Part shown: positions 1 through 28,924 of the stretch, in pieces
How positions within the stretch are numbered: the first letter of the stretch is position 1
Layout: the number at the start of each line of letters is the position of its first letter
Assembly (NCBI GenBank): GCA_027604185.1
Contig: JADGKB010000146.1
Span: 1-29,038 of the forward strand
Direction: 5' to 3'
Source: Boothiomyces macroporosus
Taxonomy: Eukaryota; Chytridiomycota; Chytridiomycetes; Rhizophydiales; Terramycetaceae
DNA length: 29,038 nt
The notes under the pieces: model-generated
Told to the model about the DNA's origin: nothing
The model's input: the letters and a program-made list of their open reading frames with translations, nothing else
The model's database searches: none
Translations under genes and position numbers: made by a program

Positions 1-2074
1 TTATTGCTTTATGTTAGGGTTGCTTGCCAGAGCGAAGGCATCTTTCAAATCTGGCACAAGGCGATTTTTTCCAATTATTTCCACTACCTTGGACTGTACC
101 AGCTTACTTTTGATGCTGTCATTGGCCCCGCTTAAAATAACTGTACATGTTTGGCCAACAAATTTCTTGAATATTTGGGAAAGGATCAGTACTCCATAGG
201 TATCCTAGGTTACAAAAGGTTACAATTTCCTCGCACTTGGAAAGATCAAATATAATTTTGATTGGATTCGCACTGAGACTATATCTTGCCTTTACCAAGA
301 GCCCCTTTTCTCGAGTTGCAATTCGACTTGACAGTAATTTATACGAAATTTCTGGTGCATTTGAGTCTGCTATTTCTCTTGCATTCCTTTCTGCCTCTAA
401 CAATAGCTCTATTCTTCTTCGAAGTCTTCCAGCGTTGTAAAATTGAAGTGGGCCGTAGATTCTAACTGCTATAACTCCATCCACAAATTTACAATTTGGA
501 TAATTTCTTGCGTCAATATACATTGAATCCCCGTTCTCTAAATCCAGTAATCCTACTAACCCAATGTTAATTTTAGTAGTTTTCCGTAAAATTAAAAGCG
601 ATGATAAAAGCAAGCATAGTACAATCCCGTCTGAAATCGATATGAATGTTGTAACGCCAAATGTAAGCAAAAACATGAAAATATCCCCAATGCTTTTCAT
701 TTCTATCAGAAATGCAAATTCAGAAAAATCTATCAAGTTGTACCCCGCATTGGCAACAATTGCAGATAATACTGCTTTGGGGATATATCGTAATACAGTT
801 TCTAGAGTTGAAAACAATGCTAGTACGATTAAAGCAGACAAGACCCCAGCAATGGTAGTTCTTGCACCAGCAGTAGCTAAAATTCTGGACCGTGGCAATG
901 AACCAAATGTAACATAACAACCAAAAAAAGAGCCTATAAGATTGGCAGACCCCAAAGCAAAAAGTTCTCGATTTCCACTTGGAAAATAACCGTGCTGTAG
1001 ACCAAAGCTTCGAGTAACACATTGAGATTGAATATATCCGATAATTGAAATCACAATCACATTGGGTAGCAGCCTTTTGAACTGTTCATAGTCCAAAATT
1101 GGTGCAGCCGGTGTGGGGATTGCACTTGTATAGTCGCCAATAATTTTAATTCCCAATGAGCTAAAGTTTAATGTATAAGAAAATACCACAGTCACGAATA
1201 CCAAGATAAGAATTGCTGGTACATGGACTAACCATTTCTGCCTGCTTGCAAATCTGGTTTTCAAGGCCTGTAGCCCAAATAGAAACAACAAACAGCAAAA
1301 GGATAGAATAACGGTATTTAAGTTTGCTTTGGTAAATGGAACACTAATTAGTTTTGTGTAAGTGGAATCGCTGCCTTTTGCTGGGGATACCACTCCAAGG
1401 AGACCTGGAAGCTGCTCAACAATAATTAAAAGTGCCACTCCAACTATGAACCCATTCAATAGGTATCCAGAAATAATGTTGTCTATAAAGCCTGCTCCAA
1501 GCGCAGATAACACCATACAAAAGATTCCCACATAAAAGCCAATTGCTGTTGCAATATTATTACTATTACCGCCATAAGATGAAACTTCATTGACGCAAGC
1601 AACACCCACTAAAACACTTGTAAGAGCTTCGGGTCCTGCTTTTACTCAAAAGTTACCTACAGAGAGCTGTCTTGAAGCACCAAAAATCGCGTACGTGAGC
1701 AAAGGAAATACCGCTGACACTAGCGCCCTGATTGAATCTATTTGTGCAAGCTGGGCATATCCCATAGCCTGTGGAATCAATACAAATGCGATGGTAATTG
1801 CCGCTCGAAAGTCTTCCAAAAAAGTGGAAAGTTTGTATAAACTGATGTGATGAACCAACGGAAAGATTCTATAAGGAAAAAGCAACAGTCTTTTAAGTAT
1901 GGTATCAGTTGGAAGGGGGTCTTGCGACGTGTAGGCAAATCCGGGCGTTGCTACAGGTGTTTCCACATCGTGAAACTTGTTTATACCATCCACATAGTCA
2001 CCCTCCGTCATATATACGACCGATTTCCATATTGAGAGACGATTTCTATTTTCCTGTACTTCAATTTCCTCCAT
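1..2074 (-). CDS. SulP/SLC26 family sulfate (anion) transporter, copy 1
   Basis: Plasma-membrane anion transporter of the SulP family with a C-terminal STAS domain, 677 aa. Exons are 2074-1657, 1635-224 and 204-1; introns are 21 nt (1636-1656) and 19 nt (205-223). Removing them restores SVGPEAL and the STAS core, and all phases agree. Visible signs: cytosolic N-terminus, then the family signature PQAMGYAQLA (residues 101-110) and FGASRQLSVG (about 131-140), many hydrophobic helices, and STAS from about residue 500 with a FDLSKCEEID strand. The start is the ATG at 2074, because the N-terminal block (QENRNRLSIWKSVVYM) is shared with copy 2. The stop TAA is at 1-3, so the CDS is just complete. 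SulP transporters usually import sulfate; the substrate here is inferred from the family only. It forms a tandem pair with the next gene. Confidence 0.93.
98..313. repeat. Near-identical tract shared by the two SulP genes (copy at 2471-2686)
   Basis: Bases 98-313 match 2471-2686 (constant offset 2373) with one mismatch that I can find (g184 versus a2557). The tract spans the end of exon 2, the whole 19-nt second intron and part of exon 3 of each SulP gene. The flanking sequence on both sides is clearly more diverged, including third-base changes and short runs with no match. A further identical run of about 60 bp covers the last codons (1-65 versus 2374-2438). Confidence 0.9.
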
Positions 2075-2373
2075 TTACGCTCAGACAGCAAAAAATTTTG
2101 GCGATACCAGAAATTAAGCTTCAGGGTAATTCTTTACACCGATGGGATTCAGATTCAATCTCTATCAGTGCAATTTACCCACTGAAATCAAACACACTAC
2201 GGGTAGTTTTTCCGAGAGAGCAACCTAGGTGAATTTCACTTTCCTGCGATAGAAGCATACGCGGAAAATCCAACGTTTATCTTGGTCAAGTTTACAAAAG
2301 CTCCTAATGAATGCTTTGTTAGAAAGGTTGTGTAATATTGCAATGGATGCCAAATTTCAGCACTTGAAATTCT
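2075..2373. promoter_or_regulatory. Spacer holding the SulP copy 1 promoter
   Basis: This 299-bp spacer lies between the start of copy 1 (minus) and the stop of copy 2. No ORF or RNA gene is seen. Directly upstream of the copy 1 ATG, bases 2090-2101 read CCAAAATTTTTT on the minus strand. The same 12-mer occurs upstream of copy 2 at 4463-4474, 16 and 20 nt from the two ATGs. A shared regulatory site is inference; it could also be residual duplication homology. Confidence 0.4.
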
Positions 2374-4443
2374 TTATTGCTTTATGTTAGGGTTGCTTGC
2401 CAGAGCGAAGGCATCTTTCAAATCTGGCACAAGGCGATCACTCCCTATCAAGTCCAACACCTTGGAATCCACCAGCTTACTTTTGATGCTGTCATTGGCC
2501 CCGCTTAAAATAACTGTACATGTTTGGCCAACAAATTTCTTGAATATTTGGGAAAGAATCAGTACTCCATAGGTATCCTAGGTTACAAAAGGTTACAATT
2601 TCCTCGCACTTGGAAAGATCAAATATAATTTTGATTGGATTCGCACTGAGACTATATCTTGCCTTTACCAAGAGCCCCTTTTCTCGTTTTGCCAGCGGTA
2701 TTGATACTATGCTACATGAGGTTTCAGCTATACTAGATTCCCTCATGTCTTTTGCACTTCTATCTGCCTCTATTAATAGCTCTATTCTTCTTCGAAGTCT
2801 TCCAGCGTTGTAAAATTGAAGCGGACCGTAAATTGTTAGCGCTATAACTCCATCCACAAATTTACAATTTGGATAATTTCTTGCGTCAATATACATTGAA
2901 TCCCCGTTCTCTAAATCCAATCTACCAACTAATCCAATGTCAACTTTTGTTGTTTTTCGTAGTATGAGAAGCGCTGATAATAACAAGCATAATACAATCC
3001 CGTCTGAAATTGAAATGAAGGTAGTCACCACAAATGCAAGGAGAAACATGCCAATATCTGAAAGACTTCTCATCCTGACCAAAAAAGCTATTTCATGAAA
3101 CTCTATCAAGTTGAAACCAGCGTTAGCAACAATAGCGCAAAGTACTGCTTTTGGTATGTATCGTAATACAGTTTCTAGAGTTGAAAACAATGTTAGTACG
3201 ATTAGCGCTGCCAAAATGCCGGCAATGGTAGTTCTTGCACCAGCAGTAGCTAAAACTCTGGATCTTGGCAATGAACCAAATGTAACATAAGAGCCAAAAA
3301 ACGATCCTACAATATTGGCAGTGCCCAAAGCAAAAAGTTCTCGATTTCCACTTGGAAAATAACCATGCTGCAGGCCAAAGCTTCGCGTAATAGATTGAGA
3401 TTCAATGTATCCGATAATTGAAATCACAATCACATTGGGGAGTAACCTTTTAAACTGTTCAAAGTCTAATATTGGTACTGAAGGAGTTGGAATTGTACTA
3501 CTAAAATCTCCAATGATTTTGATTCCCAAAGATTCAAAATCTAATGTATATGACAAAACGATTGTCACAAATACTAAGATAAGAATTGCCGGGATATGAA
3601 CTATCCATTTCTGTCTGCGGGCTATTTTGCTTTTTAATATCTGAAGGCCAAATAGAAATACCAAGCAACTGCAAGACAGGATAACGGTATTTAAATTAGC
3701 ATGAGCAAATGGCACCTTGACAAGTTTCTTGTACGTTGAATCACTTCCATCTGCGGACGAAACCACACCCAGAAGGCCAGGCAGCTGTTCAACAACAATC
3801 AAAAAAGCGACACCGACTATATAGCCGTTCATTAGGTATCCTGAAATAATATTATCGATAAAACCAGCTCCGATTATAGATAACACCATGCAGAAGACAC
3901 CCACATAAAATCCCAAAATGGTGGCTACATCGTTGCTATTTCCGCCGAATACAGAAACTTCGTTGACACAAGCAACACCCACCAACACGCTGGAAAGTGC
4001 TTCTGGCCCTACTATCAATGAAAAATACCTATGGACAATTGTCTTGATGCCCCAAAAACAGCATATCCAATGAGAGGAAATACTGCCGAAACTAATGCCC
4101 TGATTGGATCAACGTCAGCAAGCTGAGCATAACCCATTGCCTGTGGAATTAGAACAAACGCGGTCGTAGCTGCCGCACGAAAGTCTTCCAAAAACCAGGC
4201 AACAGAGTACAACTTGATCTGATGAAGAAGAGGAAATATCCTATAAGGTAAATGCAAAAGCCTTTTCAATATTGTAGTGGCCGAGCCCGACTCTTGCGAG
4301 TTGACTGTATATCCTGGAACTATGCTGTTTATTTCATCCTGGAACTTATCTAATCCCTCAGCATATTCGCCTTCCTTCATATATACGACCGATTTCCATA
4401 TTGAGAGTCGATTTCTATTTTCTTGCTCTTCTATATCCCGCAT
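2374..4443 (-). CDS. SulP/SLC26 family sulfate (anion) transporter, copy 2
   Basis: Tandem paralogue of the preceding SulP gene, 676 aa. Exons are 4443-4029, 4008-2597 and 2577-2374. Introns are 20 nt (4009-4028) and 19 nt (2578-2596), at the same positions as in copy 1; the second intron is identical in sequence. Both copies keep the PQAMGYAQLA and FGASRQLS blocks, the membrane helices and the C-terminal STAS domain ending NPNIKQ. Copy 1 and copy 2 differ freely through most of exon 2 but are almost identical in the 3' part. The TAA stop lies inside an AATAAA hexamer on the coding strand. The 205-bp gap to the divergent gene at 4649 must hold the promoters of both. The first intron ends in a TAGTAG tandem acceptor. 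Confidence 0.93.
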
Positions 4444-4648: not shown

Positions 4649-6739
4649 ATGAATAAGAAAGATAGCCAGAACCGCTCCAGAATAAATGTAGTGGATACCG
4701 ATTCGAATGAGGTTTATATATTGGATGAGTCACCAAATTATAAACCTACTGGAAGGCACAGCAAGGAATCATCATTAACAAAAGATACAAACCAAGATTT
4801 GAGTAATTACGAGTCCGCTTCATTTAAATCGGGATACAATAGCAATCAAAAATCTTATTCATCATTCAAGGAAAATAGCAGCTCCAACTTTAATCACAGC
4901 GAAAATAAACGCGCATCGATGAGCTTCAAATCAGGGATTTCCAAGTCTTACATTCCATTAAAGGATAATTCAAAAGAGCATATTCTTGCGGTGAAAACAA
5001 GCAAAGATAATATTAGTCGGGAGTTGCTATCTCCCGACAGAATTAAAAATGACCATGAATTATCAAAGTCCCGAAGCGAAAACAGTCTATTGATTCTCAT
5101 GGAAGAAACCAAATTTCATTCAAAAACAAAGAACTCGTTAATTACCGAATTGAGATCCCAAAATAGGTTTACTGAGCTTGAAAATAACGGTTATTCGATG
5201 GCTAAACTTCCAAATCTACTATGTAAATCGATTTAATATTAGTGGATGACAAGCGTTCAAGTTTTTCGAAATCTACAATATCCAGGGAAAGCTCGTTAAG
5301 AAGGGGAAAGACGAGGATGGGCACAGCTCAGCCAGATCCTTACGGTAGCTTAATGTCGAGGGTTGAAAATATATTTGAAACGGATTCGATTCCTACAAAG
5401 CCGGATCTGGTAATTACCAGGAAGCACACTGGAAAAATCTATCCTGAAGAAAAGTTATCCATACCTCTAAGCGATGAAGCTCCAAGGCTGACCCGTAAAT
5501 TGACAGGCCAAAAATCTATTGCCGAGCAATCTGTCCGGCCATCTATCAAAAGTCGAATGACAGATAGGAAAAAGTTTGATTATCAACAGGAGCTGGATCT
5601 TTTAAAATTCAAGGAAGAAATTGAATTCCAAGATAGTGACGAGGAATTGGACGAATTATCGGATAATGAATCATTTGAATCACTACAAGATAGTAGGGAA
5701 GAAGAAATTTGGACTCCCCCTGAAGCATTTAAATCTCTGGAGGACATCAAACAGAGTAAAATTTTCACCAACACTCCGCAAGATATGAAGCCAGGCTTGA
5801 TACTTGGATTATCAGCGTTGCATAAAGATGGCATTCGCTTTGATCCAAAAGGGGTCGGAAGTATATTTGAGTGGGCAACTTCCTCTTCTCAATGGCGACG
5901 TATCGGAATAAAAAAACCCACAGCTACAAACGTCGCTGTTCCATTAGGACCAAAGGGATATGTGGACGCTGCTATTGTTTTTGCTGAAAAGCAAATGGAG
6001 GCATGGGAAAAGATGAAGGCAGAAATGCTCAGTCGAACTGGCCAAAAAGCAACCAAATTCAAGAGTTTTCACGATGTTATTAATATAATTCAAAGGCTGA
6101 AGCAACTAGGGATGAACCCTCAGCTTTTGGTAATTCAAACTAACCCAGAATCGCGTCGACAAGTCCACTCTAAATATAATCATCTCCATCAAACTATGGA
6201 AAAAGAGAGCGCTGGATAATAGGAAGCTGCGCAACGAACCAATTAGAAAAGTGCTCTTTAAAGAGGAAAGGGAATTCGCATGTAGAGTTCCACCAATGAT
6301 ACAAGAATATATACTCGAAGAATCAGTGAAAGTAATTGAAAATTATGAGAAGCTGTATGAGAACTTTCTAGGAGCTGAAAACGAGAAAACAGTTGGCTCA
6401 AGGAAACACAAACGGAAAATACTCTCTCAGCAAATACAACCAGATAGTGCACTAGAAGAAGAGCAGCAAGGAGTAGCAAGAAAAATGTTTTCAATGCGGT
6501 CGCTCCGGTTTGGGTCATTTAGATCCAGCAATGCTCGTATTGTCCCAGTAAATGATATAGAATCATCTCAGGGTATAAATGAAGAGCCAGAAGAAAATGA
6601 AGATTTGCAAGTTGTGGTTGTATCAAACAAATCAACACTGCCGCCAGTTCGTGGGGCATTGCGTAGAGGATCCAAAATAGCCCCAATGAGGGACGAAATT
6701 TTGATTAAAATAGAAGAGGATCAAGAGGACCAAGAATAG
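4649..6739 (+). CDS. Unrecognised Ser-rich, acidic, largely disordered protein
   Basis: I do not recognise this protein (683 aa). Exons are 4649-5222, 5243-6129 and 6149-6739. Introns are 20 nt (5223-5242) and 19 nt (6130-6148); with them the three open segments join in phase. The first about 190 residues are rich in Ser, Lys and Asn, with repeated SFKS-type pieces. A short repeat follows (TRKHTG, then TRKLTG about 40 residues on), then a strongly acidic stretch (DSDEELDELSDNESFESLQD). After that comes a more ordered, possibly folded part with aromatic and Gly residues (FDPKGVGSIFEW...WRRIGIKK, AEKQMEAWEKMKAEML), and a helical, acidic C-terminus. No membrane segment or signal peptide is seen. 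It is convergent with the glyoxalase gene, 39 bp away. A cytoskeletal or ciliary role is possible but has no direct support. Confidence 0.8.
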
Positions 6740-6778: not shown

Positions 6779-7600
6779 TTATCCCCTGAAATTGTTCTTG
6801 AGTTCCCTAAGTGTACCCATCAAGTCAATAGGATTGGAAACACCAACTGCTTTTTGAACAGACTCTTCTGCAACCCTCATGAATGGATTGGTATCCCATT
6901 CATCTTGAAGTGTAGATGGAACAGTTATTTTGGTCTTTTGAGCCCAGTTGTATTTTTCCTTGAGTTTCTGATTGTGAGGATCAACAGTAAGCGCAAATTT
7001 CAAATTAGCCTCAGTGTATTCACTAAATTAGCATCATGCTACTGTCCGCAGTATACAAGAGTATCCTTTGGTAATGCACCGATAGTTTTAATGAGGGAAT
7101 TGTACATGTCTTGCTTTGTCCCTTCGAAGAATCGTCCACATCTTTCTTAGCTTAAATTTACCCACCAATAAACAGCGTATCTCCAGTAAAGACAACTTTA
7201 TCCTTTCCTTCTTCATCTTCGACATAGTAAGAAACTGATCCGTTGGTATGTCCGGGTGTTAACAATGGAGTAATATTCAGAGCTCCGAGTTTAAACGGAG
7301 AATTGGCTTTAATGGTCATTTCCTTTACTCGTTCATCTGCAGCGTATACTTTAATGCCCGGATAGGTTTGAACTACTTTTGCGTTACCGCCTGCATGGTC
7401 ATTATGATGGTGCTTGGTTAATTCCATGTTACAGTGGTTAAGATCGCTTCCAGTTTTGTATCCTTAACGGCAGCCATTGCAGGAATTGGCTCGGCAGGAT
7501 CCACCAGGGCAGATAGGTTGGTCTTGGTGCATTGCAGCAAGTAAGCATAATTGTCTTTGAAAATTGGAATTGGAGTAACTTTGAGCATCTGCTTCATCAT
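6779..7600 (-). CDS. Hydroxyacylglutathione hydrolase (glyoxalase II)
   Basis: Hydrolyses S-D-lactoylglutathione to D-lactate and glutathione, the second step of methylglyoxal detoxification. The protein is 253 aa, the usual length of the cytosolic form. Exons are 7600-7433, 7412-7162, 7141-7043 and 7022-6779; all three introns are 20 nt (7413-7432, 7142-7161, 7023-7042). Each intron sits inside a hallmark motif, which makes the splicing firm: metal-binding TTHHHNDH (residues 55-62) is rebuilt across intron 1, GGCGRFFEG across intron 2 and CGHEYT across intron 3. The metal ligands H111 in TPGHTNG and the Asp of TGDTLF are present. No targeting peptide is visible, so the enzyme is probably cytosolic. 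The C-terminus ([14 protein letters not shown]) matches the family end. Confidence 0.95.
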
Positions 7601-7668
7601 TAGGGAAAATTATCTTTTACCCGAGACCTCGAAATGCAAGATTGATTACGTATTCAATAGCAAGGACA

Positions 7669-8550
7669 ATGAATTCTTGGAAAATGCTAACCACTGAAAT
7701 CATTACGATCCTATTTCTCATTGCGGCAACAATAATTAAAGGATTAGGATTCAGAAAATGCTTGTTAAAATGCAATAGGAACCATTCTTACACTTACCCC
7801 TTGATTTTCTTTAATATCGTTGGATTTCTAGGAATCTTGCATCGCTTCTACATGATAATCAAATCTATCACCGTGGGGATTCAATATCTGGAACCAAACG
7901 ATTTGGACAATTCCTTGTTAGTAATTACCGCGGAACTGGAAATCTACTTTATAATTTTCACGGATTTGCAAACCTTAAATATCTATGGAGTGTTGTTTCC
8001 ATTCTTTACACCAGTTAGAATCATTATATTACAAATAACCAACGCTGTAATAGCGTTATGTGCATTAGCACTTCATTTGGGTTGCGTTTTTTATCCTTTG
8101 CTTGCATTTGTAAGTTATTCTTGATCAATAGTATAACGGGATCGTAGCTCTAGTGAGGGTGCTTGCTGCATTGATCATTGACAGTTATCTGAGTATTGGT
8201 CTATCCATCTTACTGTACAAACAAATTCTAAAGAAAACTAAATTCGAAGAGCCAAAGCTGAAAGTTTTACTACTCAAGTGCGTAGCATTGCTGATATTTG
8301 ATAGCGCAGGATATGCTCTTGACGGAATAGTTTCAGCAACTCAGTTTGTAAATACATTCTAAAATAGGAAGAGTATACTCTGCAACTGCTGTTTTACATT
8401 TTATATACCCTACTCGCTATTCATTTTGGTTCGATAACTCTGTTGTTCTTTGACTTTAAAGAAGTTGCGATTTCAACATTCAAAGTGTACAAGGAACCAA
8501 TTAACAATGCGGAGCTTACATTGGAAATGACTCAGGTTCAGCTTAAATAA
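7669..8550 (+). CDS. Seven-helix membrane protein of unknown family, copy A
   Basis: I do not recognise the family. The protein is 279 aa with about seven hydrophobic segments and short loops, so it looks like a compact seven-helix protein. Exons are 7669-8109, 8132-8347 and 8368-8550; introns are 22 nt (8110-8131) and 20 nt (8348-8367). Helices begin near EIITILFLIAA, YPLIFFNIVGFLG, ITAELEIYFIIF, LQITNAVIALCAL, VLAALIIDSY, LLLKCVALLIFD and LQLLFYILYTLLA, followed by a short cytosolic-looking tail. Motifs shared with copy C are LDN, TAELEI, DLQT, LFPFFT and FFDFK. The ATG at 7669 is the first in frame; the ATG at 7684 fits copy C almost as well. The stop codon overlaps AATAAA. A receptor or sensor role is a guess from topology; a transporter or enzyme is equally possible. 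Confidence 0.8.
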
Positions 8551-8612
8551 AAGATGCGAACTAATTGTCTTTTTTACCTTGTCATTGTACCATTACAATT
8601 TACAATATTTCT

Positions 8613-9074
8613 ATGATGGAAGTGATTGCCTTGCTTGACATTTTCAGTATTTCTGAAATCGCTAGCTCCATGGAAATCATACACTATTTCATTGCATTTC
8701 ACAAGATTGGAATGTTGGGCTGTTTGCACCGAATGTTTCTCGTTGCTGTTGCCATGATATCAGGGTCAAAAATGCTGGATACAAATAACATAGACAATTC
8801 GTTCTGGTAAGCTAGAAATTGGATTCATCATGCTTTTGATCTACGATATCCTTGGATACTTTGAAGCTGTTGCAGCCTTTTTAAAGTTTGTAAATTGTGT
8901 TAAATTAGGACGACTATATTTCTCAATTACTATACTATATTCTTTATACCTTATTGGGCATTCACTTTAGCGTAATTACCTTATGATTTCAAGACATTGG
9001 CCGTGTCTTTAATTAGAACCAAAAAGCCAGCTCCAAAGGCTATAGGAAGCACCCAAATCAATAAAGGCAAATAA
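8613..9074 (+). pseudogene. Truncated seven-helix gene, copy B (pseudogene)
   Basis: Remnant of the same family as its two neighbours. Helix 2 is recognisable (HYFIAFHKIGMLGCLHR), then LDTNNIDNS, after which a TAA (8808-8810) interrupts the frame. The sequence then jumps from the start of the TAELEI block to the helix 6 block (LLIYDILGYFEAVAAF), so helices 3 to 5 are deleted. A 19-nt intron (8890-8908) is still present at the family's second intron position, and the exon 3 relic (YYILYTLLGIHFSVITL) runs to a frameshift near 8983. After that the DFKTLAVS tail can be followed to a TAA at 9072-9074. Much of helix 1 is also missing. Confidence 0.85.
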
Positions 9075-9100: not shown

Positions 9101-9945
9101 ATGGAGGCAATAACAATAACATGCTTATCTGTATCTACAATTTTAAAATGCATTGCACTTTGGAGATGCTTGCAAACAGAAAACAGAAAGAAATCTTATA
9201 CCACACATTTTATATTATTTCACATTATCGGCCAACTAGGGAATTTCCACCGGTTCTATGTTGTAAGTAAAGCAATGCTGACAGGCAACAAAACAGGAAT
9301 CATTCCCGAGTTAGATAATGGTTTAATGATTGCAACAGCAGAGCTGGAGATCTTCTTTATCATATACGCGGATCTGCAGACGTTTAGGATATTTGCTGTA
9401 CTATTTCCTTTCTTTACAGACAGGCTATTTGTAATATCGCATTCATTAAATGCTATCACTACTACAGCCGGGCTTTTATTTCATTTACTTTGCGCATTCT
9501 TTCCTGCTTATAATTTGGTATCTTTGATGCTAAAATAGACGACTGAAATAGTTTTACTAGGAAGGACACTAGTTATTCTGGTAATGGATAATTACTTGGA
9601 AATATCATTGGCGCTGATGCTGTATCGAGAAATATCAAAGAAAAGCGGTTCAAGCATGATTAACCTGTCTCGGCTGCTAACAAAATGCGTGTCGTTGTTA
9701 GTTTACGACACACTTGGCTATGGGTTTGAAGGAGTTGTATGGGCACTGACATTGGTATGGGCTTTTAACCCTAGGATGCATATACGTCCCAATTACTTTA
9801 TTATATATTGTATACCATACTCGGCATTCATTTCGCAGCGATCACTCTGTTATTTTTTGACTTTAAAGCCCTAACAGTTTCTACATTTAAAATCAACAAG
9901 CCAAAAAAGCAGATTGACAAAACAGTGACTTATCGCCTGCAATAA
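9101..9945 (+). CDS. Seven-helix membrane protein of unknown family, copy C
   Basis: Intact paralogue of copy A, 267 aa. Exons are 9101-9517, 9539-9754 and 9775-9945; introns are 21 nt (9518-9538) and 20 nt (9755-9774). Intron positions and the 216-nt middle exon are the same as in copy A, although the sequences have drifted far apart. Seven hydrophobic segments follow one another; conserved pieces are SYTTHFILFHIIGQLGNFHR, TAELEIFFII, DLQTFRIFAVLFPFFT and LLFFDFK. The charged tail is Lys-rich. The ATG is preceded directly by a T-tract (9092-9100). The stop TAA is part of AATAAA. The function is unknown; the shared topology and tandem layout suggest a lineage-specific membrane family. Confidence 0.82.
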
Positions 9946-16962: not shown

Positions 16963-18849
16963 ATGTCTATAAGGTCAGCAAAGAAAGCCTCCGCCTCCAG
17001 AATCAATAGTGCTGAAGCAGGAAAGCCTTCAGTGGTTGCATCTATTCCACCTCAGGATTTAACTGATGTAGTTGAGCCAAACGCGTCAGAAGCTCCAAAT
17101 AGAGAATCTGTAGAAAGAACAGTAGAGGAGCTGGAAGAAGACGAAATCAAAGAATTGGTTGATGTATTTCAAAAAAGAATGGAGCTACTACCATTACCCA
17201 TTGATTTACTCAAACAGGGACTATCAGAAATTGGACCATCTCCAGATCATTTAAAAAGTGTATACCACAAATTATCACTCCCAGTAATATTGAATTAAAG
17301 ATAGTTTCGAGATTTAGTGGATATCTCTGGCCTTTCAGAATTTGCGTATATTTTCAACTTGGAGCTGCAAGGAAACAAAATCAAAGGTATACTGGAATTG
17401 ACAAGACATTTCTCCACTAGCTTCAATGAGATATTTAATTCAGGTCGATTTGTCGGATAATGATTTGTCAGAAAGCATTGTGTTTGAACCAGCACCATTC
17501 AATCTGCAAGATGTCAACCTGTCACAAAATCACATTCTAGATATTGGAGATTTGTCGATTCATAGATTCTTGACTAGGTTGGCATTTGATGGTACTATAT
17601 AACTAAACCTTGATAATTTGGTAACAGATGTATCCGGACTTTCAGAGTGTTTAAATCTAAAGCATCTTTCTTTTGCAAGAAACAGGGTTCAAGATATCGC
17701 ACCATTGGCAGGCTTACCTCTTAAATACTTGAACATCGTAACACTCGACTAATGAAAGGAAAGTAACGACGTGGAATCAATGGAAATTGTAAAAACGCTG
17801 GAAAATTTGCAAGAACTGTATGCATCATCAAACAGGATCCAAAGTATCAGCTGCCTAGAAAGTCACAAGAATATTAGTGTATTGGATTTGGAAAGTAATT
17901 TAATCGAAAGCCCAGAAATGGTTTCCTTGCTTTCAACTCTCCCATTATTGAGACATTTAAAGATTGCATTGAATCCAATTGAAAATCTGCTGCAGATCAG
18001 TCCAGAAGGTGAAAATGACTTTCCTATCCACGATAATGCCTATTACCCTCCAAGTTTCCGTTTGAAGACTGTGTTTCTGGTACCAAGACTAACAGTCCTG
18101 AATTCCATTCCAGTTACACCGGAAGAAAAGGTTGCTTCAGTTAATATTTACAATCCAACGACCATAGTTAAAATCAGTAAGCAGCATCAGCACCAAACAA
18201 AGCAGCAAGCGTTAGCATATGCAAGGATAAAGGCAGAAGACCTAATGCGAGCAAAGAGACTGAGACCAATTGTATTGTGCGGCCCAAGTGGAAGTGGTAA
18301 AAGAACTCTTGCTGCAAGACTCCTTCGCGATCATCCTCACATTTATGGTCTATCCATTTCCCATACAACGAGGAAGCCAAGACCTGGAGAAGAACATGGG
18401 GTCCACTATTGGTTTGTGTCAAAGAAGGAGATGATGCAAATGAACCAGGAAGGCAAATTCATTGAAATGGTTACACTATTTGGTAATATGTATGGGACAA
18501 GTATGGAGTCCATCGACAGAGTCACTGAACAAGGAAAGATCTGTATTCTAGCCCTAGAATATGAAGTAAGTACGATTAATATTAGGGAATGATGGCGATC
18601 CAAAAATCATCCTTAAAGCCTAGATATATAATGATTACCACTTCCAGCATTCACATTCTGGAACAGAGACTGGCAAAGAGGGTTGGAAACGAAGACGATC
18701 ATCAGCAATGGGTAACCAAAGCAAAAGAAGCCCAAAACTATGAGGGAATAGATCATGTGATTGTTAACGATGATTTGGAGAAGGCAGTTGCTGAGTTGGA
18801 GAGCTACTGTTTAGATTTGTATTGGAAAGAATTTGACCAGGATGATTAA
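16963..18849 (+). CDS. LRGUK-like protein: leucine-rich repeats plus guanylate kinase domain
   Basis: The protein is 594 aa. Exons are 16963-17283, 17305-17386, 17406-17591, 17613-17737, 17759-18565 and 18586-18849. Introns are 21, 19, 21, 21 and 20 nt. The architecture is a short charged N-terminus, SDS22-type leucine-rich repeats (about residues 115-330; VDLSDNDLS, VNLSQNHILDI, LSFARNRVQDI, LYASSNRIQSI), then a guanylate kinase domain. The GK domain has the P-loop GPSGSGKRT at 413-421 and the GMP-site segment SHTTRKPRPGEEHGVHYWFV. Animal LRGUK has the same order and is needed for sperm head and flagellum formation; activity of the GK domain is not assured. Intron 3 is odd: the boundary that preserves the repeat consensus ends TG, not AG (17592-17612). 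A GT-AG alternative would be 36 nt (17592-17627) and remove five residues. Confidence 0.9.
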
Positions 18850-19748: not shown

Positions 19749-19753
19749 ACATT

Positions 19754-21001
19754 TTATTGTGATATGATTGCCATGTTATCTCGGGAAATTACATATTCAG
19801 TTTCTCTATACCCAAGAATTTCTGCGATATCTTTGGAATGTGATCCAAGAATGCGTTGAATTTCAAGAGACGAATAATTTACCAGACCGCGACCGATTTC
19901 TTGTTCGTATTCTTCTTCCCTGCCATCAATGCTGACTCTCTTTGCAATTTTGACTATTTTGACACATTGAAGTGCGTTAAAGCTGCCAATCACTTGTTTG
20001 ATACCAGCAGCAAAGAGAGAGCTTTTACTTTTCCTTGTGATTGCAATTGAAGCACCTTCATCAACAATCAGCTTTCCAGCAGTTGCCAAACTGTGCAAGA
20101 TCCACCATTGTCTATCATCCATTGGTTTTTCTCTAGCAAGAAACAAGGTTCCATGGCTCGGTTCAAACTCTTTGTTATTTTCGTTCTCCTGTATTTCCCT
20201 AATAATTGTCTCAATCAAGTTTGGTTTTGATCCAATGGTGATAATCATATTACACCCAGCGCTGATGGACAGCTCGGCAGCAATTAATTTTGTAATCATC
20301 CCTCCTGTCCCTACTGATGATCCTGGAGAGGATACATTCACTAGCTTAATAATCATGAACCTTGCTCTTTCAATACTGAAATATCCTTGACTACTTTAAT
20401 TCTAGCTGCGTTAGGGTTGCTTCTTGGATTATCAGTGTACAATGAATCAACATCTGTCAATAAAAACAAGTAATCGGCATGAACCATCCCAGCTACTATC
20501 GCAGATAACGAATCATTATCACCAAATCTGATTTCACTGCTTGATACAGAATCGTTTTCATTTATAATTGGAATTGTATTGAAAGCCAGTAATTCGCGTA
20601 ACGTATTACATGCATTTAGGTATGGAGATCGCTAATGGTCAGTTAAATGTACGTCACATAAATTATCCCTTGATAGTAGGATTTGAGCGATTGGAAGGTG
20701 GAATTGAGCGAATAATGAATCGTATAATGCAATTAATCGTCCCTGTCCTACGGCGGCAGCTGCCTGGATTAATTCAAATTACTTGCACTTGCGAAAGATG
20801 CTTTGGTCGCTTTGTCAATTTCAACCTCCTTAATCCCATGCCGACAGCTCCTGAACTAACGAGTACAACTTTATGGCCTTCTTCGCGCAGCTGCGCAATG
20901 GTTTCAACTAGTAAAGATAAGTTTGATAATTTGGGAATAAATGTTTTTTCGTCGCATATACTTGATGTTCCCAGCTTAATCACTATTGTCAATTTGCCCA
21001 T
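19754..21001 (-). CDS. Glutamate 5-kinase with PUA domain
   Basis: Phosphorylates glutamate in the first step of proline biosynthesis. The protein is 395 aa. Exons are 21001-20783, 20763-20653, 20631-20361 and 20340-19754. Introns are 19 nt (20764-20782), 21 nt (20632-20652) and 20 nt (20341-20360); the last begins GTTCAT, an unusual 5' site. Amino-acid-kinase motifs: [11 protein letters not shown] at the start, [31 protein letters not shown] (glutamate/ATP site), [14 protein letters not shown] and [13 protein letters not shown]. The C-terminus ([19 protein letters not shown]) is the PUA domain found in most microbial and fungal glutamate 5-kinases; there is no fused reductase. Length agrees with stand-alone fungal Pro1. 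Feedback by proline is a family property, not visible here. The stop overlaps AATAAA. Confidence 0.95.
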
Positions 21002-21098: not shown

Positions 21099-23584
21099 TT
21101 AGCTATCAGAGATGAAATCAATCTCTTGCAGATACCCTTCCAACTCTGTATTTCTCTCATGCTGAATCAAGCACTGCTTCATTGCTAAAAGAAAGTCTTG
21201 TAGTTCGCTCCAATCACTAGAGTTCAAAAGGTATATAAACAAATTGTTCCATAATTCAATATTCCAATCTTTTTCAAACTTGCCAACGACTTTGATTTTC
21301 TCCTTTTTTGCAGACTGTGGGTTTGTTTCTAGTAGCTTTCCAAACAGTAGAATGTGAATCATACACGCCAAGTTGTACAGATCCGGTTCATACTTGAATG
21401 GCTGTCCGAATCTACACTCCCAGCATTCTTCATGTGGTAATTGATCAGATTTGGGGATTTGAAACATTTGAGTAGGTTTAAAGTGATTTAAATCGATCGC
21501 TGCCCCGAAATCTACCAACACTAATTCTCTGTTTCGAGTAATATAGTTTTCCAGTCTTAAATCACCGTGTATAAAGCCATTTTTAAACAAAAAGATTGAA
21601 ATATCTAGTAGCTTGATGGAATAATGTAAAACTAGCAATTCATCAATACCTTTGATCAACTCCAATTACCTGGTGAGTCCCTTCCAATCTTTAATTTTCG
21701 GCAACTATTGAAAACATCAAGCAAGGTGGATCCTGGCTCATAGCTTAACTCCAAAATTGATTCATTCTTATAAAAATAGAAATGAAGAGGCTTGATGATG
21801 AAATCATTTCTGGTTTTTGAATGAATCTGGTGCAGGATATAGTATTCCCAACCACTAGGAGGTGTAGATATCTTTAGTACCTTGGTTGTATTCTTTTGGA
21901 CTGCATACACTTTTGAATAGTCGTTTTCAGCAAGTATTTTAACAATTTTATACTTTTCAGCATTAAACAATACAGTGTTTCCATCACTTTTCAAATTAGA
22001 CTCTTTTGAAGGATAAAAATCAAAACTCTTGTTTTGCGGATCGTATGCTTTTTTCAATATAGCTGCTCTAATTTGCGGATCGGATGGATGTACTGGCTCT
22101 TCTTCCTCAGTAATCGCTTCGAAAGAAGCTGAGGTATGATGAAAAGTAACTTCGCTCTTTTCTGTGACTGGTGTCATTATTTGCACTGGCTGTCCAAAAA
22201 CATTCTTTACAGTCCTTGGAGTTCCTTCAGAAAATAATGTTTCCACAGGATTAGAGCTATCTTCATCAGAATCTTCATCTTTGAAAACGCCCAATTTCAA
22301 CTCTTCTACAGGTCTTTTGAAAACCTTACTAGAAATTGTTTCATCATCTTGAGGATTGTAGTATATAACCTGATCAACTTCTGTGTCTCCTTGAATAGGT
22401 GCATTGAAAATATCCATAATATCACGCATAGCATCTTTTGTATTGATAGTTGGCGAAGCAGGTTTAAACTTTGGCTTCTCTACTCTTGGCGCCCTTTCGT
22501 TGATATCATATCCATACGAAATGGCCCTATTTTCTTCAAAACAATATTCCTTGTTTTTAATTTTTAGTAATTCCATTTTTGTTACTAATACAGACCCATT
22601 CATATCGGCAGTAGCAGTTTGTTCAGCAAGCAAGTCGTCTTTTTTAGATCATATTTACCTTTTACAGCTTTTGGTTTGAAAATCTTTGGTTTCTTTCTTG
22701 GTGCAACTTCTTCATGTTCATCTTTGTATACGTTCAACTTTGGGTTCGCACTAGGAGCACTTTCTTGCTTGTAAGTGTTTCCTACCCATTTTTCAGGCTC
22801 TGCTTCATTCTCTTTTGCTTTCAAACTGTAATCTTCCCAGCCAGCTGAAGCCTCAGGAACCAATACGTCTTCAGGTTCACTTGAATCTTTGAATACCTTT
22901 AATTTATCTTTAGAGCTTGTTTTTGGCTGTAAAACTTTCTTTTTTGTCAAAGGTTTATCCTCTAATGGGATTCCACTAGCCTTTCTAACCAGAAATTTGT
23001 TGTATTCCTTGACAATTTCATCAACAGGATCAGCTTTCCTACTAATACCAAGACGATAAAGCTCATCCGCTCTATCATAATCCTTTCCGGATTCATAGTA
23101 CCTAGCGTATTCTAGATAGTAGATTGCAAGTCCAGTTCCGATTTGATTTACTGCTAAATACTTGAAAGCATCCCCAGGATCGGGCTGCTTCCTAACTACA
23201 GTCATCCACAAGTCGACATATCTCGGATCGTTCTTGTATCTGCATTAACATTATTTACCTTGGGTCTTTTCTAAACTCTCTAACAGCGGTCTCCATCACA
23301 GTTGGTATTGATGGATGAGTATAAGTGAAATGCTTTGTTGTCCACTTTATGTAGTCGATATACGGGAGAAGAGGATCTTCCTTGTGGACTTTATTCAATT
23401 CTGCTTCCTTGATTCGACGCAAATGCTCGTAATCTTTCCCAATGACGTCTGGTTTGTAACCATATTTAGTGGCTTGGACATTTTCCTTTTCTTTCTCCAG
23501 CTCGTCCATGTCGTATTCGACCATTTTTGAGATTAAGATTTTGACTTCGGACTTTTTTCGATAAGCCAACCTTTGATTACTCAT
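21099..23584 (-). CDS. MadBub spindle-checkpoint protein (BUB1/Mad3-type with kinase domain)
   Basis: Mitotic checkpoint kinase and scaffold acting at kinetochores and in APC/C inhibition. The protein is 808 aa. Exons are 23584-23259, 23239-22659, 22638-21670 and 21649-21099; introns are 19 nt (23240-23258), 20 nt (22639-22658) and 20 nt (21650-21669). In order: KEN box 33-35 (EKEKENVQ); Bub1/Mad3 TPR region about 45-190; second KEN 251-253; ABBA-like motifs LKVFKD (222-227), LNVYKD (277-282) and LGVFKD (418-423); Bub3-binding GLEBS-like KEYCFEENRA (332-341); a conserved-looking block PTINTKDAMRDIMDIF (365-380); C-terminal kinase. The kinase keeps a candidate lysine (VLKIS), the catalytic loop HGDLRLEN and DFG, so activity is plausible, although the glycine loop is degenerate. 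Having both KEN boxes and a kinase marks an unduplicated ancestral-type gene. Confidence 0.93.
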
Positions 23585-23711
23585 TTCAATGCTAAAAGCG
23601 TATGAGAAAACCTTTTAAGGGATTGAACCCCGGTGATTCGGATCCATCGATCTCTTTTTAAAAGAGTCAGCAAAAAAGTTTAGTGGGAGGAAGCGTTAGA
23701 TCTTCAAAAAG

Positions 23712-23818: not shown

Positions 23819-23989
23819 AACGATTGGTGGAAATCTCGGTTACTCTAGTCATCATAGACTTGCTAAGCCACATTATGATTCATGAAAGTAATTCAAGCTC
23901 AATAGCAATCATTTTAGTTCTATAAGCATCCCGCAACAACTCAAAGATATTTCTTTTCTTAAACAACTAGTGCTTGCAAATGCAAAAAA

Positions 23990-24092
23990 CGTTTCTGTCT
24001 CGATTTGAACGAAAATCCTCCCCAAGATCGGATTCGAACCGAATTGTAACCAAAGAGTAAGTGGGGCGCTCTACCAATTGAGCTACAGAAAC
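23990..24092 (-). tRNA. tRNA-Val(UAC), 30-nt intron carrying a perfect B box
   Basis: The minus-strand cloverleaf of 73 nt after removal of a 30-nt intron (24055-24026) has a perfect 7-bp acceptor GTTTCTG/CAGAAAC, D arm GCTC/GAGC, 5-bp anticodon stem CCCCA/TGGGG, variable loop AGGAT, 5-bp T stem TTTCG/CGAGA and loop TTCAAAT. It is followed directly by six T (Pol III terminator, 23984-23989). T33 is present, the anticodon at 24059-24057 is TAC (valine), and C32 can pair with G at intron position -4, the eukaryotic A-I pair. Position 37 is T, which is unusual. The intron contains GGTTCGAATCC (24040-24030), an exact B-box consensus, while the real T arm (CGTTCAAATCG) is a poor one. Confidence 0.8.
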
Positions 24093-24201
24093 GCACCCTA
24101 TTTCTACAACTTTAAAGATATCAAATTTCAATATACACTTGTGTACAAATTATGCCATACCAATAGACTTTTCAGAAATATAGTTTAAAAATCATTATCG
24201 T

Positions 24202-25774: not shown

Positions 25775-27354
25775 TCAAGATAGTTTATTGGCTTTTGGGA
25801 AATCTTTGTAGAATTTCTTTTCCCACCTCTCTCTGTCATTCCAGTCAGGCACGATTATGTTTAGTATCTGTGGGAGACACTCGACTTGCACCAACTCATA
25901 CGGTATCCTTTCTCCGCTAAGGTCGAGAATATTATCTTTTTCAATAAGGTTGGCAGAGTCGCTATCTTGATGTCCGTGTGGATCCAATACAAACGCAACT
26001 ACTTTTTCATGTTTGACTTTATCCACCGTCATATGCATACCTCTTTCAGTATCTATTACACAACTCAGTGCTCCTGATCGATTCATTTCGGTAGTGTATA
26101 CTACATCCATGAACCCATTGTCAATTCTTGTAGAAGGACAAGCTATAAAATCCGTTGCAATCCAAGGCACATTTAGCGCTTATTAGCTACCATTTACCTA
26201 GAAAGAATTGAAAGATACTTTCGATTTGAATTGGCCACGTGGTATAACTGTCGTTATTGATTGATATATATTTACACGATGGTCCATGAAACATTTGAGT
26301 AACGTTGGCATCAACGTTCACATAGTCTGAAGCATTTTCTTTTGGAAGCATGTATAGCTTTCCCTTGTAGTGACGAAAGTCTATGATTCTGATTAGCGCC
26401 ATCAAGAATGTTCTTAGATTACCTACATTAAAATAACTGACCTATCGCCCTCCACTTTTCCGATTCTATGTCAACATCGGCTACGAATCCCCAGGTCAAG
26501 GACAAGTGGGAATAGGTGATTTTGCTGTTTTGAATCACCGCCATTACATCAAACTTGCAGGTTTTCCCCTTCAATATCGCCAGCGTTGCGAGTTCCTGAT
26601 ACTCCAAATCCAAGTTCTTTCCGATTCCATTCGCAGTACCACCACCAATAGTAGCAATTGGCAAATCCTTTGCAAGCTCCCAATCTGGCCTGGAAAGCAG
26701 CCCGTGAACTATTTCGTGAAACACCCCATCTCCAGATATAGATGCTATCACTTTGTATTTGGTATAATCCAAATCTCTAGCGATTTCTGAAGCATGATTC
26801 ACATATCGCGTTTCTCGAAGTTCGTGCAGATGCTCCAAGCCAGCAATTTTGATTATAGGAAGGACTATTTTGTGATAAATCTTCAAGGCTTTCTTTTGAC
26901 CACCAAATGGATTTAATACAAACAGATACTTTTTATCAGACGGACCCAAAGCCTCCCTAATTGTCTGAACACAGTTTTCAGCATCTGCAATTAGTGCTAT
27001 ATACCTACTGAAGCACTGGAAAAAACAATTTCTCGCAAAGTAGGCTTTGAAACATTTCCGTTCTCATCCAGATTAATATTAAATGCAAATATTGACCATC
27101 TACCAGTTGGAATTTGCTTGATCCGCATTGCAGCTAATTCCAAAGGATTTGATCCGCAACAACTGGTGAAATATCGATCTTTAGTATGCGCTACTCCGAT
27201 TATGTGGTTCAATGAAAGCGAGTATTCTAAGTCAGAATCAAATACGTTTTGCGTTCACTACCCAGTGGATATCCGTATCAGTTAAAGTGATTTGCGTCAG
27301 TGCAGAATAGTTTGTTCGTTGGTTACTATCATATTCAAACCGTTGGCGTTCCAT
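25775..27354 (-). CDS. Sphingosine (long-chain base) kinase
   Basis: Phosphorylates sphingoid bases to signalling and degradation intermediates; diacylglycerol-kinase-type catalytic fold. The protein is 464 aa. Exons are 27354-27246, 27226-27005, 26984-26442, 26422-26198 and 26178-25775. Introns are 19 nt (27227-27245), 20 nt (26985-27004), 19 nt (26423-26441, starting GTCAGT) and 19 nt (26179-26197). Motifs: NPFGGQKKALKIY (nucleotide site), SISGDGVFHEIVHGLL (catalytic SGDG), ATIGGGTANGIGKNL, the sphingosine-kinase-specific SLTWGFVADVDIESEKWRAIG, and the C-terminal VECLPQILNIIVP. The WGFVADVDIESE block separates it from plain diacylglycerol or ceramide kinases. The start ATG at 27354 lies in a first exon found only by allowing the 19-nt intron. 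It is the one gene here ending in TGA. It is divergent from the CDP-DAG synthase, 178 bp away. Confidence 0.93.
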
Positions 27355-27532
27355 TCCCAGATTCTAAAATTTCAAAAAAACGTTCCAGAGTTTTAAAGGG
27401 TTGGACTGCACGCCAACTAAGCCAACCTAGTGCTCGGATTTCCGAGTGCGGTATGCCTGATTTGAATTGTTGAAACATCACTCTTGTGACTTTTTCTTTT
27501 TTTCACCACATTAGTGTTGAACCTCATACTAT

Positions 27533-28924
27533 ATGACAAGAAAAAGAAAGACTAAATCAGCATCAGAATCGCATGCAAATTCAGAAGCGTCCACTCCGGT
27601 ATTACAGAGAAAAAAGCCAGGAACTCCAGCAGAAGAAGCGCCAAAGTTGCTAGTTGACCAGCCAGCTACTGCAAAGTGGAAGAATTGGTGGACAAGAACA
27701 TTTTGGACCGTAGTAATGATCTTGGGTTTCTTGGGAATATTATACGCTGGACCGCAATATGTGATACTGCTTGTCGGAATCATCCAAATTATCGTCTACA
27801 AGGAAGTATTATCTCTTTCCGTAGGTCCATCCAAAGAAAAATCTCTACCTTGGTTCAGATCTTTGCATTGGTATTTCCTAGCTTCCACAAACTATTTTCT
27901 ATATGGAGAATCATTGATTTATTACTATAAACCATATGTACTAGTAGATGCATTCTTAATGCCACTCGCTACTCATCATCGATTCATTTCATTTTCATTG
28001 TACACTGGCGGACTTGTAATATTTGTATTGAACTTGAAAAAAGGTGATTATCGCTAATTCCAGGGTTTTACAAATTCCAGTTTGCTCACTTCTGTTGGAC
28101 CCATATGGCACTATTGCTAGTTGTTGCTCAATCGCATTTTATCATCAACAATATTTTCGAAGGTTTGATTTGGTTCGTGCTACCTTGTGCTTTGGTTGTC
28201 TGCAACGACATTATGGCATACGTCTCTGGATTTTTCCTTGGAAAGACTCCTCTAATCAAAATCTCTCCAAAGAAAACTTGGGAAGGATTCATTGGAGGAT
28301 TGATTGTTACGGTAGAGTTGTTTCTCATCCCAGGTTATATTTGCTTATTTCTTTTCCGGATTTATAGCTCAGTATCCATACATGACTTGTTCACTCCAAG
28401 ATGTTACCTTTAACCCAACAGGATATGTTTGCCCGCCAAATCCAGTATTTTTAGCTAGGCAAATACAGTTGTTCCCTTCAATCACAGGCAATTTTTTTCT
28501 AATATCAGGGTTATTGCGATGGATTGTCATGCCATTCCACTTTTTATTCCCAACTCTAGTGTCAGCTGAACCTATTCGTACAATGAGTGTTTTGCCTATT
28601 CAATTCCACGCATTGGTATTTGCCATGTTTGCTTCTTTAATTGCTCCATTTGGAGGTTTCTTTGCCTCTGGTGTGAAACGTGCTTTCAATATTAAAGATT
28701 TCGCAGACTCTATCCCGGGCCATGGTGGACTAACAGATAGAATGGATTGCCAATTTATTATGGGAGTATTTGCTAGTTTATATTACCACAGTTTCATTGG
28801 AAGAGTTGGTATGACCGTAGGAACTGTTCTGGAATTGGCATTGCAAAGTTTGGATACTCAAAATCTGGTTCAATTGTATATTGGATTGGGTAAATACCTG
28901 GAAGGACAAGGAATAGAATTTTAA
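27533..28924 (+). CDS. CDP-diacylglycerol synthase (phosphatidate cytidylyltransferase)
   Basis: Converts phosphatidic acid and CTP to CDP-diacylglycerol, the precursor of phosphatidylinositol, phosphatidylserine (in fungi) and cardiolipin; an ER membrane enzyme. The protein is 449 aa, the usual eukaryotic size. Exons are 27533-28043, 28064-28311 and 28334-28924; introns are 20 nt (28044-28063, GTGATT start) and 22 nt (28312-28333). A basic disordered N-terminus is followed by several membrane helices and the blocks [31 protein letters not shown], and [20 protein letters not shown]. The signature [14 protein letters not shown] is complete, with its metal-binding acidic residues. Intron 2 removal restores [20 protein letters not shown]. 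An AATAAA follows the stop by a few bases, and the convergent SDR copy stops 50 bp away. Confidence 0.95.

Follow-up and report, generated by a model that had tools for sequence, protein, structure and literature searches.

The window analysed here, a stretch of 29,038 nucleotides (nt) that constitutes contig C146 of an assembly of 15.2 Mb in 216 contigs, contains 42 GT-AG introns, and every one of them measures between 19 and 22 nt. These are most probably (a probability of about 0.93) ordinary U2-type spliceosomal introns whose length has fallen, almost throughout the genome, to roughly the physical limit of what the spliceosome of the host accepts. Judging by its proteins, this host is a Boothiomyces-like chytrid fungus (Rhizophydiales). 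For instance, the spliced ornithine carbamoyltransferase (OTCase) is 88% identical to that of Terramyces sp. JEL0728 and 66% to that of Globomyces pollinis-pini, Isy1 is 94% identical to that of Boothiomyces sp. JEL0838, and the LRR-guanylate kinase shows 91% identity over 61% with Boothiomyces sp. JEL0866 and 81% with Terramyces over its length. Boothiomyces, a genus of free-living saprotrophs, is placed in the Terramycetaceae (Rhizophydiales, Chytridiomycota).

Length and anatomy of the introns

Beyond the window, gene models were built from codon statistics, with GT-AG introns free to take any length from 10 to 120 nt under a uniform length prior; in a second stage donor and acceptor matrices were learned and the length prior remained uniform. 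The unselected sample comprised bases 100,001-110,000 of contigs C1 to C20 (20 x 10 kb; contigs of 155-401 kb), and the larger intron sets add to these 20 stretches the loci found by gene searches. Already before motif training, 129 of 254 GT-AG introns fell at 19-22 nt, compared with only 2-18 when the same model was run with each of seven decoy end pairs (168-243 introns in all). After training the proportion was 203 of 239 in 255.7 kb, made up of 52, 89, 46 and 16 introns of 19, 20, 21 and 22 nt; one intron had 17 nt, and none had 18 or 23. The unselected 200 kb gave 183 of 217, with introns of 19-22 nt present in 20 of 20 stretches. At least one intron was carried by 75 of the 119 gene models in these stretches, at about 0.9 introns per kb, and the extrapolated genome total is roughly 13,900 introns. 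When a mild preference for 19-22 nt was introduced, 388 of 414 introns across all loci lay in that range (24 were longer and two were of 13 nt), as did 251 of 264 in the unselected stretches, the 13 remaining being longer. An earlier note on this DNA had claimed that ultra-short, uniform spliceosomal introns are a genome-wide feature, and the narrow peak obtained beyond the window, in the sampled genome, bears this out.

Annotation-free counts give the same range. When the spacing of GTA[AT], branch motif and AG was counted, with lengths of 200-1000 nt as the baseline, 241 modules were observed at 19-22 nt where 43 were expected. No excess was found at 23-30 (67 observed, 86 expected), 31-50 (211, 216), 51-100 (533, 540) or 101-200 nt (1103, 1080), and the highest count at any single length between 23 and 199 nt was 23 (at 67 nt), the baseline maximum being 25. 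A plain count from GTA to [ACT]AG peaks at 20, 22 and 19 nt (z 4.2, 2.8 and 2.7), although weakly, other lengths being nearly as high. A mild annotation-free excess at 23-200 nt with the control donors AT and GC (z up to 5.7) is read as composition drift.

The anatomy of the introns was described from 265 calls of 17-24 nt, all GT-AG because the models admit no other ends. The donor, of the GTAATT/GTAAAT type, begins with GTA in 240 of them, and the ends are TAG (171), CAG (59), AAG (32) or GAG (3). A branch motif, a weak YURAY, was scored in 230 calls (TTAAT 75, CTAAT 50, TTAAC 33, CTAAC 20); both signals fit U1 and U2. Within these 230, the branch A is preceded by 13 (114), 14 (82) or 15 nt (17) and followed by 5 (119) or 6 nt (80), which tightens to 5-6 nt, in most introns, the 3-8 nt previously claimed between branch and intron end. 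Intron length is the sum of these two distances: 13/14 (or 15) + 1 + 5/6 = 19-22 nt. For instance, the geometry is 13+1+5 in 59 of the 66 introns of 19 nt, those of 20 nt (n = 119) include 49 of 13+1+6 and 49 of 14+1+5, and 14+1+6 is commonest at 21 nt (25/58). An annotation-free map of both distances over the unselected stretches gives 56, 38, 49 and 39 in the cells 13-14 x 5-6, over a background of 4.7 per cell; no other among about 2,000 cells exceeds 18 (13 x 35), and the row of that cell is inflated by real introns combined with any later AG. The 14+1+6 cell (21 nt) amounts to 34.3 after background subtraction, about 29 being expected under independent distances, and a depletion of introns of 3n length was looked for in this map and not found.

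In the mechanism that we propose, four modules would follow one another: a donor, GTA(A/T).., whose positions 1-6 would be read by U1 and then by U6; a few nt of spacer; the branch motif YURAY, in pairing with U2 and with its A at nucleotide 14 or 15, sometimes 16; and a tail of 5-6 nt ending in YAG. Two separate distances would be held, from donor to branch A and from branch A to the 3' splice site. The U1/U6 positions 1-6 and a U2-branch helix of about 7 nt leave 2-3 nt, suggesting that the two helices are adjacent, with almost no nucleotide to spare. A polypyrimidine tract is missing because only 3-4 nt separate the branch A from the AG and, since there is no room for one, the spliceosome would have to recognise the intron as a whole (intron definition). 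The lariat would be a circle of 14-16 nt with a tail of 5-6 nt, and a changed N-terminus of Isy1 may help the active site to accept so tight a loop.

Introns placed in the window

Gene models of the window, based on codon statistics with introns of 18-23 nt permitted, place 40 introns (8, 20, 7 and 5 of 19, 20, 21 and 22 nt). Two further introns, at 26179-26197 (19 nt) and 17738-17758 (21 nt), were set by hand in gaps between models, which brings the counts to 9, 20, 8 and 5. The donor is GTA in 38 of the 42, the rest being GTG (two), GTT and GTC, and two introns (8890-8908 and 8972-8993) lie inside a degraded, low-scoring gene. The earlier note had counted 44 introns, 40 of them with GTA; its range of 19-22 nt holds for all 42. 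Without that reader's list, an intron-by-intron match between the two sets cannot be made.

Comparison with homologues covers 27 introns in eight genes: 20 junctions align gap-free, a gap stands within a few residues of two others, and five lie beyond the alignments. All junctions are gap-free in CDC50 (5/5), glyoxalase II (3/3), OTCase (2/2, one of them with Terramyces only), SulP copy 2 (1/1) and the LRR-guanylate kinase (4/4, one of them not with Terramyces, whose model is without that exon); the proportion is 2/3 in glutamate 5-kinase, 1/5 in the Pumilio gene and 2/4 in the sphingosine kinase-like gene. The basis for the other 15 of the 42 introns is frame and motif, for some together with a domain match on the spliced protein. 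The introns, and one candidate outside the 42, are as follows.

1636..1656, minus: 21 nt, SulP transporter copy 1; gene model, position and protein length equal to copy 2
4009..4028, minus: 20 nt, SulP transporter copy 2; gene model, gap-free junction, 17-nt reading rejected
5223..5242, plus: 20 nt, uncharacterised gene; frame only
6130..6148, plus: 19 nt, uncharacterised gene; frame only
7413..7432, minus: 20 nt, glyoxalase II; gene model, gap-free junction
7142..7161, minus: 20 nt, glyoxalase II; gene model, gap-free junction
7023..7042, minus: 20 nt, glyoxalase II; gene model, gap-free junction
8110..8131, plus: 22 nt, membrane protein gene; frame only
8348..8367, plus: 20 nt, membrane protein gene; frame only
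8890..8908, plus: 19 nt, degraded membrane protein copy; low-scoring gene model
8972..8993, plus: 22 nt, degraded membrane protein copy; low-scoring gene model
9518..9538, plus: 21 nt, membrane protein gene; frame only
9755..9774, plus: 20 nt, membrane protein gene; frame only
10723..10742, plus: 20 nt, OTCase; gene model, gap-free junction
10855..10873, plus: 19 nt, OTCase; gap-free with Terramyces, gaps with remoter homologues
11708..11727, plus: 20 nt, CDC50/LEM3; gene model, gap-free junction
11862..11881, plus: 20 nt, CDC50/LEM3; gene model, gap-free junction
12276..12297, plus: 22 nt, CDC50/LEM3; gene model, gap-free junction
12682..12701, plus: 20 nt, CDC50/LEM3; gene model, gap-free junction
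12865..12884, plus: 20 nt, CDC50/LEM3; gene model, gap-free junction
14011..14030, minus: 20 nt, GTG donor, uncharacterised repeat-like gene; frame only
15079..15099, plus: 21 nt, Pumilio gene; frame only
15226..15246, plus: 21 nt, Pumilio gene; frame only
15694..15714, plus: 21 nt, Pumilio gene; frame only
16298..16319, plus: 22 nt, Pumilio gene; gene model, gap-free junction
16531..16550, plus: 20 nt, Pumilio gene; gene model, gap within a few residues
17284..17304, plus: 21 nt, LRR-guanylate kinase; gene model, gap-free junction
17387..17405, plus: 19 nt, LRR-guanylate kinase; gap-free with Globomyces pollinis-pini
17592..17612, plus: 21 nt, candidate non-canonical GT-TG intron, LRR-guanylate kinase; 14+1+6, outside the 42
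17738..17758, plus: 21 nt, LRR-guanylate kinase; placed by hand, gap-free junction
18566..18585, plus: 20 nt, LRR-guanylate kinase; gene model, gap-free junction
20764..20782, minus: 19 nt, glutamate 5-kinase; gene model, gap-free junction
20632..20652, minus: 21 nt, glutamate 5-kinase; gene model, gap-free junction
20341..20360, minus: 20 nt, GTT donor, glutamate 5-kinase; gap within a few residues
23240..23258, minus: 19 nt, BUB1/Mad3 kinase; gene model, spliced protein with family domains
22639..22658, minus: 20 nt, BUB1/Mad3 kinase; gene model
21650..21669, minus: 20 nt, BUB1/Mad3 kinase; gene model
27227..27245, minus: 19 nt, sphingosine/DAG kinase; gene model, beyond alignment
26985..27004, minus: 20 nt, sphingosine/DAG kinase; gene model, beyond alignment
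26423..26441, minus: 19 nt, GTC donor, sphingosine/DAG kinase; gene model, gap-free junction
26179..26197, minus: 19 nt, sphingosine/DAG kinase; placed by hand, gap-free junction
28044..28063, plus: 20 nt, GTG donor, phosphatidate cytidylyltransferase; gene model, single Pfam match across both junctions of the gene
28312..28333, plus: 22 nt, phosphatidate cytidylyltransferase; gene model, same Pfam match

The 17-nt alternative in SulP copy 2 is discarded, the 20-nt reading aligning gap-free with prestin and with a plant sulfate transporter. The 21-nt reading gives SulP copy 1 the same length as copy 2 at the intron site; comparison of the paralogues alone cannot tell the pair 21/20 from 18/17.

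The stretch 17592-17612 is a candidate GT-TG intron, or one with a mutated acceptor or a base error: its geometry is exactly 14+1+6, it ends in TTG, not TAG, and its position and phase match a putative Globomyces intron. The two Globomyces records of this kinase are nearly identical except for gene-model differences, and at this place SLDYNMISD in one corresponds to SLDCIRSLNLPLDNMISD in the other, which is longer by nine residues (27 nt). Back-translated, the 27-nt insert would fit GTATA...TTAG with a TTAAY/CTAAY-like branch, and its removal would restore Y.

Exceptions, splicing factors and competing explanations

Several observations weigh against the reading as ordinary introns of almost fixed length. 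Without length preference 45 of 312 calls exceed 22 nt, and under the mild preference 24 of 414 do so, and inside seven of these 24 no GT-AG pair of 18-23 nt is found. The seven include the 46-nt intron of Isy1 (locus L046, 1761-1806, GTAAGT..CTAATGTTAG), which is supported by Boothiomyces and Globomyces proteins; a 22-nt reading of the same site was discarded, the DNA and two relatives showing the 46-nt intron. Among short introns, 58 of 263 have no strict branch match at 5-7 nt. The acceptor matrix with which introns were called weighs mostly the last 12 nt and contributes in part to the 3' distance obtained from these calls; the annotation-free maps are free of this influence. Non-GTA donors give no annotation-free peak (163 observed, 172 expected at 19-22 nt), so that the 25 non-GTA calls among the 265 depend on gene models. 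The genome total is extrapolated from 1.3% of the genome, U1 scores 68.8 bits, just under the Rfam cut-off of 69.5, and U2AF65 falls below its family cut-off when scored exon by exon (230.7 vs 310.3 bits). The removal of the listed sites from RNA is inferred from comparison of DNA and protein.

The longer calls could mean that a substantial class (more than about 10%) of ordinary-length introns coexists with those of 19-22 nt, which would then merely dominate. The homology-supported 46-nt Isy1 intron speaks for this, and 36 of the 45 longer calls begin with GTA and 21 finish in the branch module, compared with 6.4% of random AGs. However, 22 of the 45 enclose a complete 19-22-nt intron and look like merged neighbours, only 13 of 264 are left in the unselected stretches under the mild preference, and no length class between 23 and 200 nt shows an annotation-free excess, which makes such a class unlikely. 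In view of the Isy1 intron, a small minority of longer introns is taken into our reading of shrunken U2-type introns: the length rule is strong but not absolute, and a few percent of longer introns remain. The strict length measurement put forward earlier is supported by the sharp edges of the distribution and by the two distances, and is qualified by these rare introns, among them a homology-supported one of 23 nt in Slu7 (15+1+7). They offer an internal comparison. Calls without explanation similar to the Isy1 intron were also seen in loci L008, L011, L012, L019 and L035, with one of 24 nt in L049.

The search for splicing components covered the small nuclear RNAs (snRNAs) U1, U2 and U6 and the proteins SF1, U2AF65, Slu7, Prp18, the Yju2 family, Cwc25 and Isy1. 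All seven protein factors and the three snRNAs were found, and the splicing-factor genes themselves carry the same short introns. All three snRNAs are canonical at the positions that contact introns. U1 is full length, with the 5' end AUACUUACCUG; U2 is represented by two full-length, divergent genes (142 and 135 bits; L029 and L030, G000:C80 and C178) with the branch-pairing GUAGUA; and U6 (62 bits) has ACAGAGA. U2AF65 aligns with human RRM1-2 and UHM, and its beginning aligns with a piece of U2AF59, the fission yeast segment that binds the small subunit. SF1 retains the HH, KH and zinc-knuckle regions. The changes in U2AF and SF1 suggested by the earlier note were not found, U2AF65 keeping both RRMs and the UHM, and SF1 the regions just named.

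Slu7 (154.6 bits) aligns over most of its length with the 586-residue SLU7 of solved spliceosomes, presumably the human protein; Prp18 scores 173.6 bits, and one Yju2-family protein is present. In yeast, Slu7 and Prp18 are needed mainly for long branch-to-acceptor distances; the idea that both are dispensable here was not borne out, genes for both being present. The Cwc25 model, with MGGG, begins upstream of an internal MGGGDLNLKKSWHP that is taken as the true start. Cwc25 matches with identical scores lie near two contig ends (G000:C49:3542-3652 and C100:5137-5247), as an assembly duplicate or haplotype copy. Among the factors examined, Isy1 is the only one that looks unusual.

Frame-breaking inserts, short and of a narrow length range, could also be removed from the DNA, as in the elimination of internal eliminated sequences (IES), or be skipped in translation. 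This is very improbable given the GT-AG ends, the branch motif at a fixed distance, the canonical U1, U2 and U6 sites, the presence of the same introns in splicing-factor genes and the lack of a comparable peak for decoy dinucleotides; the decoy-end comparison supports none of the DNA-elimination, AT-AC and GC-AG readings. Introns of the minor (U12) type keep a narrow branch-to-acceptor distance, as these do, but the GTAATT/GTAAAT donors and the weak YURAY branch fit U1 and U2, and AT-AC ends gave 12 of 243 at 19-22 nt, far from the GT-AG proportion; a minor-type origin deserves hardly any credence, the U11/U12 RNAs and the U12-type GT-AG consensus having been outside the search. Sequencing or assembly indels alone could cause frame breaks. 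The inserts, however, share one motif structure and occur in 20 of 20 unselected stretches, and proteins from other deposited genomes line up once the inserts are removed, which leaves this explanation next to no probability.

Known tiny-intron systems, relatives and neighbouring features

Introns shrunken to this extent can be compared with several systems. Introns of Stentor coeruleus measure 15-16 nt, with the branch A at nucleotide 10-11 and a 5-nt tail; Slu7 and Prp18 were undetected, the Cwc25 glycine motif is missing and the Isy1 N-terminus is not conserved, and 18% of the genes have introns, the annotated ones being all of 15-16 nt (PMC9505925). Stentor and the chytrid share GT-AG ends, narrow lengths, a fixed branch A and canonical U1 and U2 pairing sites, and the chytrid tail is equal to that of Stentor or one nt longer. 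In contrast, the branch A is nucleotide 14-16 in the chytrid, whose circle is 4-5 nt larger, Slu7, Prp18 and the Cwc25 motif are present, intron-bearing genes are far more frequent (75/119 models), and rare longer introns are found in the chytrid only. The diverged-looking Isy1 N-terminus resembles the Stentor report, although the first exon of the chytrid gene is unsure.

The nucleomorphs of the chlorarachniophytes Bigelowiella and Lotharella (951 and 1,011 introns) have introns of 18-24 nt, with a mode of 19 and a maximum of 32 nt (PMC4035089). GT-AG ends are common to both and the lengths are nearly equal (mode 20 in the chytrid), but nucleomorphs are relic algal nuclei whereas the chytrid has a full fungal nucleus. 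Mikrocytos mackini, a parasite with a reduced genome, has 224 introns of 16-17 nt and a spliceosome of 17-19 identified proteins (PMC10245619); it shares the extremely narrow length range and conserved intron sequence, and differs from the chytrid, with about 0.9 introns per kb and all searched factors, in its reduced genome and spliceosome. Introns of about 25 nt, with under-represented 3n lengths, occur in Paramecium and Nyctotherus (PMC5014332), which are likewise nuclear genomes whose introns are all very short; those of the chytrid are shorter and the 21-nt class is not depleted. In a survey of 644 fungal genomes the Cryptococcus mean of 63 bp is termed relatively short (PMC8476143). The chytrid introns have about one third of that length and a far narrower range.

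The chytrid is of the ultra-short kind, with nearly all introns below about 25 nt, a range of a few nt and a fixed branch-to-3' distance of 5-6 nt, and it is apparently a further, convergent case beside nucleomorphs, heterotrich ciliates and mikrocytids. In the papers cited here, tiny introns are tied to relic nuclei (PMC4035089), reduced parasites (PMC10245619) and ciliates with altered splicing factors (PMC9505925); a fungus with introns of 19-22 nt throughout the sampled genome and with Slu7, Prp18, SF1 and U2AF65 suggests that tiny introns do not demand a reduced splicing machinery. It would set a natural lower limit to each of the two splicing distances among opisthokonts and would be a possible new system for asking what minimum intron size splicing can still remove, 19-22 nt being near the smallest known. 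Among the papers that a literature search listed, none dealt with intron length in Terramycetaceae or with fungal introns of 19-22 nt, which is weak evidence of absence, most subscription papers being beyond reach.

Protein models of relatives indicate that ultra-short introns probably extend through the Terramycetaceae into the Globomycetaceae. For instance, the LRR-guanylate kinase model of Terramyces is short by 13 and 11 residues, and that of Boothiomyces sp. JEL0866 by 139, where the host has tiny introns. The Isy1 model of Boothiomyces sp. JEL0838 agrees with the removal of three host introns of 19-20 nt, so annotation handles them unevenly and does not always fail. Since some public models of close relatives drop exons or keep an insert, the protein sets of this clade may be damaged wherever a gene finder sets its minimum intron size larger than this.

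The Isy1 N-terminus projects, in other spliceosomes, into the active site beside the intron. MxRNxEK stands at the very start of 58 of the 120 Isy1 homologues listed and within the first 60 residues of 59; the other 61 are mostly the variant MARSAEKA or later-starting models. Clearly different full starts among those listed belong to Boothiomyces, Globomyces, Kappamyces, Gorgonomyces and two metagenome proteins (P0167, P0208). The 24 chytrid rows listed comprise 12 with MARNEEKAQSMLYRF, six starting with MLYRF, two odd or partial models and four diverged. No MxRNxEK-type motif occurs in any of the three forward reading frames of locus L048 (3.2 kb). The start is diverged both in the host model and in the annotated Boothiomyces protein, which may share one wrong first exon. 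Because this exon is unsure and absence of the motif is not rare, the diverged N-terminus stays a lead. At Isy1 L046 1259-1299 (G000:C39) two complete 20-nt modules stand 1 nt apart, either as two introns around an exon of 1 nt or as a nested (twin) intron, and at this place the annotated Boothiomyces protein has fewer residues, as though one longer intron had been removed.

It is tempting, though rather doubtful, to extend these observations to a Rhizophydiales clade (Terramycetaceae, Globomycetaceae and perhaps Kappamyces and Gorgonomyces) that would have independently evolved a two-ruler spliceosome, accepting almost only donor-branch distances of 13-15 nt and branch-acceptor distances of 5-7 nt, with splicing factors kept and with erosion of the Isy1 N-terminus, as in Stentor, as the enabling change. 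If true, Fungi would have their first example of this kind, in a cultivable organism suited to study the lower size limit of splicing.

Several other features of the window were recorded. Tandem SulP transporter genes (119-2074 and 2492-4443) have very similar 3' ends, which suggests a recent duplication or gene conversion, and a small membrane-protein gene is present in three tandem copies at 7620-9950, the middle one degraded. A tRNA-Ile(UAU) with a 30-nt intron in the anticodon loop lies at 23989-24093 (minus), and a tRNA-like stretch near 23700-23820 that resembles it was not called. The window end, 28974-29038, resembles 24201-24265, the 3' end of a short-chain dehydrogenase gene, and is probably a further copy. 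An interstitial telomere-like TAGGGTTAGGGTTA is found at 11617-11630.

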